A DNA stretch of 64,000 bases. It comes from Clostridiales bacterium (GTDB lineage Bacteria > Bacillota > Clostridia > Lachnospirales > Lachnospiraceae). The stretch is from NCBI GenBank assembly GCA_003343625.1, contig QAKV01000036.1, positions 28,141 to 92,140 of the forward strand, read 5' to 3'. Shown piece by piece: positions 9,545 to 55,206 of this stretch; position 1 is the stretch's first letter, and each line of letters begins with the position of its first letter. The notes beneath the pieces are model-generated. The model searched no databases. It was not told where the DNA came from and saw only the letters and a program-made list of their open reading frames with translations. The position numbers were made by a program, and so were the translations under genes.

Positions 9545-9653
9545 GGAAAAAATAAGCCCGTCAGGTTATTTTTCTCAGGGCTATTTGTGTCGGAGCGTCG
9601 CAAATAGCTAGGATGGCATGTCCCGTCGCTTACGCTCCGGAGTGGAGGTTTTG
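9545..9653 (+). ncRNA. Dispersed structured 5'-leader element, copy 1 (XRE gene)
   Basis: Stem GCTATTTGTG (9580-9589) closes loop TCGGAGCGT (9590-9598) with CGCAAATAGC (9599-9608), including one G-T pair. ACGCTCCG (9632-9639) is complementary to CGGAGCGT of the loop. An A/T-rich hairpin (arms about 9546-9555 and 9566-9574) precedes it. GGAGG 9644-9648 directly follows and serves ATG 9654. No third hairpin in this copy. Confidence 0.6.
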
Positions 9654-10390
9654 ATGAGTCTGGGAAGCAATATCGCTTATCTGAGAAAGCAGAAAAGGGT
9701 AACGCAGGAACAATTTGCGGGGCAAATGGGGTTACCAGGCAGACGGTATCCCGCTGGGAATCCGACGAAGTGATCCCTGAACTGGCAAAGCTGATGAACA
9801 TGTGCTCTGTCTTCTCCTGTAAACTGGACGCCCTCGTCAGGGAAGATCTTCCGTCCCAAAGCGGAATATATTCCGAGGTTCAGATCAGAAGGATCGCTCC
9901 CTTCCGAATGGCCAGCTATACGATCGTTTCCCCGAATCCGGAAAACGACGCAAACGGATATATGCAGCGCTGGGCGGACAGCAGCGGTCTGAAAGCCGCT
10001 TATCCGAACGCGAACCTGATCGGATGGGATTTCCCTTTCGTCACCCAGGAGCAGCAACACCGTTTCCGCCTGCACGGCTATGTGGCAGCCTACGCGCTGC
10101 CGGAAGGATTCGAAACCGATTGTCCCGGCGTGCAGTATTCGGAAAACGAGGAAGCCGATTACGCGGTAATCACCGTGACGGACCCTTTCGCCCAGTCCTT
10201 CGAAAGGATCCCCAATGCTTACAAAAAAATCCTGGAATACATGCAGGCAAACAATCTGGCAGAACGGCATCGCGAACATGTCATCAGCTGTTTTGAGTAC
10301 GTGTATACGGATCGGGGCATAACCTATATGGACGTGCACGTCCATGCGGAAGGGGCGGCAAAACCCGACGCTTTCTCCAGATTTAATTAG
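9654..10390 (+). pseudogene. XRE-family regulator with GyrI-like effector domain, single-base frameshift
   Basis: Starts ATG 9654 after TGGAGG with SNIAYLRKQKRVTQEQFAGQMG, a helix-turn-helix N-terminus. After the G-run at 9728-9731 the next helix continues in another frame: VTRQTVSRWESDEVIPELAKL. One extra G would restore a single ~245-aa protein. The remainder (to TAG 10388-10390) matches a GyrI-like/AraC effector-binding domain (FRMASYTIVSPNPEND.., NANLIGWDFPF, YAVITVTDPF). Such proteins sense small molecules. The lesion is in a homopolymer, so a sequencing error is possible; a second homopolymer frameshift occurs in the nearby DUF2200 gene. Confidence 0.75.
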
Positions 10391-10503: not shown

Positions 10504-11601
10504 TCATCTCGCCTCCATATTTTTCCCGTGAATCCGATTCATCTGATACCAGGAAGGCGGATTGCAATTCTCGCACACATATAAAAATTTATGGCGGGCG
10601 GGTTCGCCTTTCTTCGTCTCGACCAGTTTCAGCGGTTTCCCGCACTCCGGGCACGCGGGCCTTTTCGAGCCGAACAGTTCTGAAGTCATGGAGCCCCGAT
10701 TCCAGTTTTTAAGCCTCGCGTCCCGATCCATGTCCGCCATTCCGGCGCCGAGCTTTATGGGATACATATAATAAATCGCATTTCCCGATTTCGGGGATGG
10801 CATTTTCCGGATTCTGGGCTCTTCGAAAAAACGGTCTTTCGTAACATATCCGGGAAGGATAATTTCATCGGAAAGGACATCGAAGAAAACCCGCGTATAA
10901 ATATCGCAGGCGTGATCCCATTCCGTCCGCATCAGCCGTCGCAGAAATTCCCCTGTGCTCCGGGTTTCGAATTCAGGATGGCTGCTTTTGACATAAGAAG
11001 CGTATTCGTAAAAATTGGTGATTCCGCGATGATCCCTGCAGTAGTGCGGGTAAACGAAGTAGTCGTAGGAATTCCGGATATGGGCACAGAGAGCCTCATA
11101 ATCTTTTTGTGAACGCCTTCCCTTCTCTTTTTGTCCCATCGCCCGGTAGTCCCTGGGGTCCTGCAGGAGGGAGGATTTGATCTCCACGGTGAAAACGCCT
11201 GAGTCCTCCAGAAATTCCCGGGTTCGGACTGCGATCGTCCCGCAGTCCCCCGGGCTTTCGTTCACATCCTCCCGGATGCGGTCAAACGCTTCCTTCAGGA
11301 TCACATCCGAAATCCGCGCGTCGAAAATCACGCCGTCAAACGGCGCATGCTTTTCGAAATGATCCCCCCGGATCGCGTCATAGGATCGGTACCGCAGGCT
11401 GCTGTTTTCTGCCATAAAGCGCTCGATCACCAGTTCCGCGCTCTTTCCCTGTACGGTGTTTTTCCGGATTTCCCACAGAGGCCTGTCGTGCTGCCATGTA
11501 TTGTGGGTGTGCCTGACGATATTTTCGATCTCCCCCATATCCAGCTCCGATGGATCCGGTACCGGGTAAATCAGCATCTCCCCGCATTTCTTCTCATTCA
11601 T
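10504..11601 (-). CDS. Uncharacterised protein, PD-(D/E)XK-like with C-terminal zinc ribbon
   Basis: 365 aa, start ATG 11601 behind GGGAGG; the reading frame extends to 11634 but without a Shine-Dalgarno. Family not recognised. Residues ~45-60 read [16 protein letters not shown], then [10 protein letters not shown] (~90-100), and [11 protein letters not shown] (~135-145). The order Glu ... Asp ... Glu-x-Lys matches the core of restriction-type PD-(D/E)XK nucleases (inference). Near the C-terminus CPECGKPLK and, about 20 residues later, CENC form a zinc ribbon. The start overlaps the 3' end of the DUF2200 gene by 8 nt, so the two were one transcript. No methyltransferase is adjacent. It could be a repair or defence nuclease, or an inactive relative. 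Confidence 0.6.
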
Positions 11602-11943
11602 AACCTGCCTCCCGTTTTCGCGCCAATTTTGCACATGTTTCCCTTTTTATATCCAGATGGCGAATATCCTGCATCAGCGGTTCTTCGATATTTTCCCCCC
11701 GGACGCCGCAGACAACTCCTGTAATCCGTTTCCTGTCCGGATTCATCGCCGGGGCGGAAGCAAAAAAGTCCTCATAAGAAATGGGACTTTTCAGCAAACC
11801 CTCCAGCGCCTCCCGGCTGTAGCCAGTCAGCCAGCGGATCACCTCGTCCACTTCCGCTTTCGACCGTCCCTTTTTTCCGCCTTTGTCACCAGAAGTGGAT
11901 ACACCCGGGTAAAGTCCATTTTATAAACTTTCTCGCCGGTCAT
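11594..11943 (-). pseudogene. DUF2200 family protein, single-base frameshift
   Basis: ATG 11943 opens [24 protein letters not shown]; the frame then breaks in a run of six A and resumes in another frame as [32 protein letters not shown], and [30 protein letters not shown], the standard DUF2200 signature. One additional A would restore an intact ~115-aa protein. The function of DUF2200 is unknown. Copy 2 of the dispersed leader element ends directly upstream of the start, and the PD-(D/E)XK-like gene overlaps the stop. Decay or homopolymer sequencing error cannot be told apart here. Confidence 0.7.
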
Positions 11944-12054
11944 CGTAACCTTCATTCCGGAGCGTCAGCGACGGGGCGTGCCATCATAGCTGTTTGTGAC
12001 GCTCCGGCACAAATAGCCGTGCGAAAAATAAGCTATCAGGCTTATTTTTCACAC
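11944..12054 (-). ncRNA. Dispersed structured 5'-leader element, copy 2 (DUF2200 gene)
   Basis: Read on the minus strand: A/T-rich hairpin with 14-nt arms (12041-12054 and 12019-12032); stem GCTATTTGTG with loop CCGGAGCGT and CACAAACAGC (12017-11989), one mismatch; then GATGGCACGCCCCGTCGC and GACGCTCCGG (11966-11957), the exact complement of CCGGAGCGTC. It ends next to GGAATGAAGG and ATG 11943. No third hairpin. Confidence 0.6.
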
Positions 12055-25279: not shown

Positions 25280-25330
25280 ACTTGCGGCGGTATCTTCCGC
25301 CTGCAAAAGATCCTGTCCCGATGGAGGCCA

Positions 25331-25464
25331 GTGTGAAAAATAAGCCTGATAGCTTATTTTTCACACGGCTATTTGTGCCGGAGCGTCACAAATAGCTATG
25401 ATGGCATCAGAAAAATCGCATTTTCGATTTCTCTTCGCCCCGTCGCTGACGCTCCTGAATGGAG
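25331..25464 (+). ncRNA. Dispersed structured 5'-leader element, copy 3 (AraC gene; most complete)
   Basis: Hairpin 1: GTGTGAAAAATAAGC (25331-25345) and its perfect complement at 25352-25366. Hairpin 2: GCTATTTGTG (25368-25377), loop CCGGAGCGT (25378-25386), CACAAATAGC (25387-25396). Hairpin 3: AGAAAAATCG (25409-25418) with CGATTTCTCT (25425-25434). Then CCCCGTCGC and TGACGCTCC (25447-25455), the complement of GGAGCGTCA in hairpin 2. GGAG 25461-25464 is the Shine-Dalgarno of ATG 25471. Confidence 0.7.
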
Positions 25465-25470
25465 ATTTTT

Positions 25471-54062: not shown

Positions 54063-54067
54063 TTCAA

Positions 54068-54166
54068 TCTCCATTCCGGAGCGTCAGCGACGGGGCGAAG
54101 AGAAATCGAGAATGCGATTTCTCTGATGCCATCCTAGCTATTTGTGACGCTCCGGCACAAATAGCC
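54068..54166 (-). ncRNA. Dispersed structured 5'-leader element, copy 4 (Crp/Fnr gene)
   Basis: On the minus strand: GCTATTTGTG, loop CCGGAGCGT, CACAAATAGC (54165-54137); hairpin 3 AGAGAAATCG / CGATTTCTCT, perfect 10 bp (54124-54099); then GACGCTCCGG (54085-54076), complement of CCGGAGCGTC; ends GAATGGAG with the ribosome site for ATG 54062. Hairpin 1 is absent. Confidence 0.65.
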
Positions 54167-55077: not shown

Positions 55078-55201
55078 AAATGCGTTCGATAACGCATTTT
55101 TCAATCAGGAGTTGTGCCGGAGCGTCACAACTCCTGTTACCGTAGCGCCGAATTGAAAATTTGGCGCGCGTTCCTCAACGGAAAACGCTTCGGAATGGAG
55201 G
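55078..55201 (+). ncRNA. Dispersed structured 5'-leader element, copy 5 (variant stems)
   Basis: Hairpin 1 AAATGCGTT / AACGCATTT (55078-55099); hairpin 2 CAGGAGTTGTG (55106-55116), loop CCGGAGCGT (55117-55125), CACAACTCCTG (55126-55136); hairpin 3 GCGCC / GGCGC (55145-55167); ACGCTTCGG (55185-55193) pairs with the loop through one G-T. GGAGG 55197-55201 serves ATG 55207. The stems differ from the other copies but remain paired. Confidence 0.65.
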
Positions 55202-55206
55202 AAAAA

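Follow-up and report, generated by a model that had tools for sequence, protein, structure and literature searches.

The window analysed here, a 64,000-nt stretch of DNA from a Lachnospiraceae genome, carries five copies of one structured element, each of which ends at the ribosome binding site of a gene (Table 1). The five places, the common plan and its optional parts had been described in a first-pass annotation made from the letters alone, and all of them were found again: copy 4 is without the A/T-rich first hairpin, copies 1 and 2 are without the third, and all five lie in sense orientation to the next gene, with its ATG 13 nt past the 3' arm. The arm of copy 5 has CTTC, which amounts to one G-U pair. 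A GGAGG immediately upstream of copies 2 and 3 had been overlooked in that annotation. Pfam matches downstream of the window copies comprise an AraC-type and a Crp/Fnr-type regulator together with two pieces, one GyrI-like and one of DUF2200. The record shows frameshifts in the genes behind copies 1 and 2 (9654-10390 and 11594-11943), where a short first frame is followed by the GyrI-like or the DUF2200 piece in another frame, and sequencing error and decay are indistinguishable here.

Table 1. The five copies of the element in the window, with their parts given in the direction of the downstream gene (SD, Shine-Dalgarno sequence)
Copy	Positions	Strand	Hairpins	3' arm	SD at right end	Upstream flank	Downstream start
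1	9546..9653	+	P1 (A/T-rich) ~9546-9575; P2 9579-9608; then linker	TACGCTCCGG 9631-9640	GGAGG 9644-9648		ATG 9654, frameshifted regulator-type gene
2	11944..12054	-	P1; P2 12018-11989	GACGCTCCGG 11966-11957	GAAGG (SD-like)	GGAGGG	ATG 11943-11941, frameshifted gene, DUF2200 piece downstream
3	25331..25470	+	P1 25331-25366; P2 25367-25396; P3/P4 ~25400-25440	GACGCTCC 25448-25455	GGAG inside 25458-25464	SD GGAGG 25323-25327	ATG 25471, AraC-type regulator
4	54063..54166	-	no P1; P2 54166-54137; P3/P4	GACGCTCCGG 54085-54076	GGAG		ATG 54062-54060, Crp/Fnr-type regulator
5 (diverged)	55078..55206	+	short first hairpin; P2 55106-55135; P4	AACGCTTCGG 55184-55193	GGAGG		ATG 55207, 176-aa protein without Pfam match

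The recurrence that the annotation had pointed out also held when it was counted. The core-loop motif CCGGAGCGTC, searched on both strands with at most one mismatch, has 19 matches in the window against 6.7 expected and a shuffle maximum of 12, and the 3' motif GACGCTCCGGAATGGAG, allowing up to three mismatches, has five against 0.36 expected, solely at the five copies. With these counts, and with a chance of 0.66% that a random position falls 10-17 nt before the start of a same-strand ORF of at least 100 aa, chance was rejected as an explanation. A covariance model (R1), made from 32 training copies picked after de-replication, four of them from the window, recovers all five places, and copy 4, which was outside the training set, scores 110 bits; other R1 matches in the window, at 28.9 bits or less, are reverse-strand or partial and lie at the same places. 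P2 varies little in the training set because the training copies mostly have one exact core in common. Rfam 15 gave no match in the window at the gathering score and none around copy 3 up to an E value of 5, and at ten further loci returned SRP, 6S, fluoride and tRNA only, all away from the copies, so that membership of a family known to Rfam 15 was also rejected.

Scanned once for the exact 30-nt core, the GTDB species collection returned 104 stretches. Their titles name Lachnospiraceae, Eisenbergiella, Acetatifactor, Eubacterium and Candidatus Fimimorpha, the other genomes being named no further than Eubacteriaceae, Eubacteriales or Clostridiales. In nine whole genomes R1 counted at least 4, 7, 15, 23, 36, 49, 67, 67 and 97 copies, all lower bounds from scoring 150 candidates per genome. 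Several contigs of genome G002 (C3, C23, C25, C34, C45, C79 and C81) have copies inside their first 140 bases, as if the repeat broke the assembly, and copy numbers are therefore probably underestimated. Carriers were 26 of the 150 genomes in a sample of G002's family (Lachnospiraceae), 35 of 39 in a sample of G004's genus, and 2 of 291 in a class-level sample, where the two, G002 and G031, had been counted in the family sample too; stricter scoring filters applied to samples of more than 40 genomes. Judged by the family and class-level samples, the element thus seems to be restricted, or almost so, to Lachnospiraceae. Plasmids yielded no match and neither did two exact-pattern scans of viral contigs, and cargo on phages or plasmids was therefore rejected as the main reservoir. 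Three unannotated fecal records titled "Bacteriophage sp." (L225, L226 and L227; MT836788, MT837007 and MT838414) carry copies with the loop CCGCAGGCG before bacterial-looking genes, including what appears by eye to be an enolase-like ORF in one, and are possibly bacterial DNA in a virome.

Proximity to gene starts, claimed earlier for the five copies, extends to copies that were gathered through the element and not through genes, the first set having been drawn with the fixed core. After dropping 7 of 114 core hairpins that had no near match of the arm, and 3 of the resulting 107 copies that had too little sequence past it, an ATG was found 8-17 nt past the arm in 97 of the 104 evaluable copies, at exactly 13 nt in 75. 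Among 177 distinct copies, diverged ones included, 158 are followed by the start of an ORF that either has 60 aa or more or runs past the end of the locus; of the 19 exceptions, six (L004, L069, L122, L140, L215 and one in L243) have a further copy, or the left end of one, behind them, and the rest include the two frameshifted window genes, very short genes and absent genes. Placement at random positions and in random orientations was also sought, and was not found: in 383 kb of genome G263, a sample not tied to the fixed core, on contigs selected for known copies and then taken as full stretches, all 14 clear copies (at least 29.7 bits) are in sense, 13 of them directly 5' of an ORF start and one before the next copy. 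Two weaker matches that were examined there are both remnants before an ATG, and the other weaker ones, which are outside the count of 14, consist of reverse-strand matches at the same places and of several matches below 19 bits. In 1.21 Mb of genome G001, four of four copies stand before an ATG.

The genes downstream are mostly unrelated to one another and, as judged by eye from their N-termini and not by profile, include dnaA, enolase, alaS, glyS, hisS, metG, tyrS, pyk, efp and others. A single downstream gene family, as an autonomous version would have, was not seen among the 158 copies, which yielded 12 small clusters of two to four genes, several of them orthologues in different genomes and none transposase-like by eye. 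The distance between SD and ATG is 5-6 nt in 127 of the 158 copies, whereas it varies widely among 1332 other genes at these loci, chosen for an SD-like word, and TA occupies positions -4/-3 in 94 copies (59%) but in 9% of the comparison genes.

A second SD is often found on the other side of the element. Of 216 tail matches, 111 had distinct flanks and a recognised P1 start and entered this comparison; in 81 of these, an SD-like word (GGAG, GAGG, GGGG or AGGA) is found in the 14 nt upstream of P1, against 11-21 in each of six 14-nt windows farther upstream; for GGAGG, the figures are 42 copies against 1-3. TA immediately precedes P1 in 69 of 99 copies, these 99 being the ones with a recognisable P1 among the 150 of 158 with enough upstream sequence. 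One guess is that the preference for an SD comes from pairing of the SD-like tail of the element with its target. In tandem copies (L005, L006, L140, L215:4409-4651 and L230:8674-8825), the second element begins right after the SD-like tail of the first.

Empty sites could also be found. The pyk leader carries the element in 1 of 30 loci (G003), and the other 29, all from the sample of G003's genus, are without it (leaders read over 60 nt, R1 at 14 bits or less). A clean empty site is given by G001 (empty, ...AAAGTGGAGGATTAATATG...) and G258 (occupied, ...AAAGTGGAGGATTA-element ending CGGAA-TGGAGGATTAATATG...), whose flanks are 91% identical, and here a 10-bp duplication, TGGAGGATTA, contains the SD. 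At trkA, G240 is without the element and its flanks are 99% identical to those of G001; its leader cannot be obtained by simply deleting the insert from the occupied leader, since that allele seems to retain, in addition, the remnant of an earlier element. Several further occupied and empty pairs that were compared were too diverged for the junction to be read, as were the alignable leaders in the genus of G263, where an aldo/keto-reductase-type leader is occupied in G263 and L249-L254 are without an R1 match.

In 112 copies selected likewise from the 216 tail matches, flanks sharing at least 10 nt occur in 12 (shuffle mean 3.9, maximum 11 in 1000 shuffles) and junction-anchored recurrence of at least 8 nt in 9 (mean 3.75, maximum 12), the latter within the shuffles, with 61 of the 112 rows shuffled as one mixed group, "other". 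In an earlier test with free shuffling, for which 23 of 107 copies without a recognised P1 start were dropped and 80 of the remaining 84 were used, both similarity measures were beyond all 1000 shuffles. One fixed target duplication as a rule is weakened by the low number of sharing copies and by the anchored measure. Most copies are in fact without an exact flank duplication, and the right end of most reads like a tail borne by the element (AATGGAGATTA); the junctions may come from a duplication that later decayed, from a tail carried over from the donor, or from both. By eye, the left end GTGTGAAAAAT and the right end ...CGGAATGGAG are not inverted repeats of each other, unlike the ends of a MITE.

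The pairing of the core loop with the downstream arm, proposed at first from the five copies, is now backed by covariation, which supports P2, P3/P4 and the loop-to-3'-arm pseudoknot together. In an alignment of 50 diverse copies, this structure has a covariation score of 0.458 against 0.161 +/- 0.009 in shuffles, a control inflated by kinship among the copies, with 88.7% of paired cells against 71.0, and 27 pairs changed on both sides against 20.2; no shuffle out of 500 reaches the observed value in any of the three measures. Versions of the structure that were slid along the alignment score 0.126 or less, a comparison that favours the tested structure because it was named from one window copy. 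The pseudoknot helix alone has 82.8% of its cells paired, and six of its nine pairs changed on both sides. Independently, loops paired with their own arms score 13.1, against 10.06 +/- 0.28 and a maximum of 10.96 in 500 exchanges of arms among 47 distinct loops; 90 of 95 matches were used here, three being cut by contig ends and two being reverse-strand rows. Loop and arm changed together in GGAGCGT/ACGCTCC, TCTGAGCGA/TCGCTCAGA, CGCAGGCG/CGCCTGCG, GACGAGCAC/GTGCTCGTC, CGAGAACG/CGTTCTCG and CCGAAGCGC/GCGCTTCGG, and a few copies (e.g. L131, L149:3294 and L122:1641) have little or no such pairing. Orthologous loci with unlike element types (L075/L104, L302/L364 and L002/L255) may represent independent insertions, and were therefore left out of the covariation claims. 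Among the orthologous copies of three genomes at L282, L293 and L294, two have an extra hairpin of 18-19 nt in the P2 loop and keep the GGAGCG pairing segment.

In species comparisons at three orthologous loci, 0-2 substitutions were counted over 123-149 nt of the element, whereas flanks that aligned well differ by 5-14% (one badly aligned upstream flank was excluded); compared with the downstream gene alone, the difference gave Fisher P values from 0.02 to 3e-6 in five comparisons. Purifying selection on the leader is the simplest reading of such low divergence, which suggests that the leader has a function at these fixed loci. Recent exchange between species could also lower divergence. Homogenisation by ordinary copies is disfavoured by the pair with the extra P2-loop hairpin, which is identical over 149 nt. 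Decayed copies that have lost P1, P2 or P3/P4 stand before intact-looking genes, which counts against a need for the whole fold. In the trkA copy of G258, P1 and P2 are lost and the gene start is unchanged; minimal copies of this kind (L139:6801, L210:359, L231:5822 and L305, the last being that of trkA) lack P2 or both P1 and P2 and keep the 3' arm, the SD and the start codon.

Folding predictions by ViennaRNA lend weak support to the idea that the pseudoknot may keep the SD open. In 142 of the 158 copies, those with an SD and a loop-arm helix of at least 6, the SD is unpaired with a mean of 0.28 when the leader folds freely and 0.41 is paired to the arm; when loop and arm are kept from any other pairing, which mimics the pseudoknot, the unpaired mean is 0.43. 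The gain in access exceeds 0.2 in 61 copies, 17 copies show a fall, and in the three window copies that were scored access goes from 0.12 to 0.13, from 0.03 to 0.28 and from 0.56 to 0.70. The gain is modest. An anti-SD switch as a universal rule is weakened by subfamilies without CTC in the arm.

Taking as given what the sequences themselves document, namely the dispersal, position and orientation of the copies, the SD on either side, the covariation and the low divergence of orthologous copies, we consider it probable that the element is a non-autonomous mobile element that targets the interval between SD and start codon, leaves the gene an SD, and is then retained as a selected RNA leader. 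According to this model, an element of roughly 75-200 nt in full copies would insert in sense between the SD and the start codon of a gene, so that an SD would lie on each side, the old one upstream and another at the right end (typically AATGGAG-ATTA-NN-ATG); the latter is presumably the one used, and housekeeping genes would therefore tolerate the element. The insertion process would itself select the SD-start interval. In the mRNA, optional P1, P2 and P3/P4 would form, and the P2 loop would form about 9 bp with the arm that lies immediately 5' of the SD. This arm often has CTCC or CTCA, which could pair with the SD, and the pseudoknot would hold the arm off and leave the SD free, tuning access to it. 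The structure would thus act as RNA, beyond any role as single-stranded DNA in transposition, and the resident leader would be maintained by purifying selection. Of the two descriptions offered in the first-pass annotation, that of a mobile repeat aimed at ribosome sites is well supported, with near-identical copies dispersed before unrelated genes, an SD on both sides, empty sites and restriction to start codons; of the other, a translational control RNA, the fold with its pseudoknot is supported by covariation, a function of the leader is suggested by the low divergence at three loci, and control itself is a prediction.

Other readings share part of this evidence. It is possible, although we favour it clearly less, that the element is a portable ribosome-site cassette of benefit to its host, whose structure insulates or strengthens initiation so that carriers gain expression; its presence before housekeeping genes (named by eye), the narrowing of the SD-ATG spacing to 5-6 nt and the low divergence would all fit, but the toleration of internal deletions speaks against it. 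Purely selfish DNA, where the fold is needed only by the mobilising machinery as single-stranded DNA or RNA, placement results from target choice and purging, and no gene is controlled, seems to us unlikely. Such a parasite would agree with the near-identity of copies that precede unrelated genes, with insertions into the tail of the element itself and with the lack of any common pathway seen among the downstream genes; an element more conserved than the adjacent genes at three orthologous loci, however, is not what a functionless one would be expected to show, and 14 of 14 copies at starts would be hard to obtain by purging alone. A little further from what we would defend is a mobile translational regulon, in which insertions, guided to the SD-start interval by pairing of the SD-like tail, would place genes under a shared pseudoknot-gated ribosome site and a common trans-acting signal. 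If true, such a regulon would rewire scores of unrelated genes per genome, each insertion being harmless with its SD preserved or duplicated.

Mobilisation by an IS200/IS605-type Y1 transposase, as in the REP/RAYT systems, with hairpin ends and one-strand insertion after a short target ending in TTA, is improbable in our opinion. Subterminal hairpins, the lack of inverted repeats, the fixed orientation to the target and the TA at the left flank would suit it. Of 14 copy-rich genomes, however, only 4 gave a match to the Y1 transposase domain PF01797, as did 5 of 10 copy-free genomes, several of these assemblies being incomplete, and a Y1/RAYT protein as a required resident partner was rejected on this basis. 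The Y1 mechanism, furthermore, is not expected to give a 10-bp duplication such as that at the one clean site. A search of G004 for a long, autonomous relative, through 14 odd or unmatched ends, found minimal, decayed or doubtful copies and no end of such a relative. Lastly, a classical riboswitch-like leader, immobile and inherited with its genes, would explain the covariation, the strict position before starts and the conservation at orthologous loci, but is very hard to reconcile with at least 97 copies in one genome before unrelated genes, with 29 empty pyk leaders out of 30, and with a two-sided SD and a clean empty site.

A structured RNA that belongs to a mobile element and lies just before a start codon is known in HEARO, the omega RNA of IscB. 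The element differs from it in having no Rfam match and no recurrent downstream protein family as a candidate nuclease. The bcr1 repeat of the Bacillus cereus group is likewise mobile, measures about 150-170 nt and has a conserved fold by prediction, but the available text on bcr1 describes no SD-specific insertion. The pneumococcal BOX, RUP and SPRITE repeats are likewise small, high-copy, folded, probably non-autonomous and near genes, and BOX can be transcribed within leaders and alter expression (PMC3049150). BOX, however, has terminal inverted repeats, which the element lacks, and the accessible parts of that paper do not describe insertion between SD and start, a fixed sense orientation or a loop-arm pseudoknot for any of the three (PMC3049150). 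The GTAG- and CGTC-tagged REPs are also high-copy palindromic repeats, and those tagged CGTC are said to be without a dedicated transposase (PMC3733652), but REPs measure 20-40 bp, and the words "ribosome" and "start codon" are absent from the available text (PMC3733652). Unlike REP/RAYT systems, Y1 genes were not found in 10 of the 14 copy-rich genomes, some of them incomplete. A published description of the element was not found in the portions of the literature searched, which included PMC3733652, PMC2267715, PMC3049150 and PMC10969869. As far as these partial descriptions go, the family would be placed in kind beside BOX, REP and other small interspersed repeats, and what sets it apart is insertion between SD and start, a fixed orientation and an arm beside the SD.

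Mobile repeats are usually viewed as tolerated in the gaps between genes, but this one appears to aim at the start of translation. Because it would leave an SD behind and then be conserved, it could offer a route to study how selfish elements turn into regulatory RNAs and how unrelated genes of one genome come to share one structured leader, and it raises the question of which process recognises the SD-start interval, in DNA or in RNA. The element also bears on the annotation of gene starts in an abundant gut family. Its tail, AATGGAG..ATG (e.g. at 25459 and 54074 in the window), places an extra in-frame ATG 12 nt before that of the gene in 103 of 158 copies, which could add four residues or serve as a second start. 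At the other end, some copies (e.g. L031, L040 and L084) begin with GTGTGA behind the upstream SD, readable as a start codon with an immediate stop, in a manner that resembles a gene start such as ATGAAAAAT; other subfamilies begin with GTATG or GATTG.
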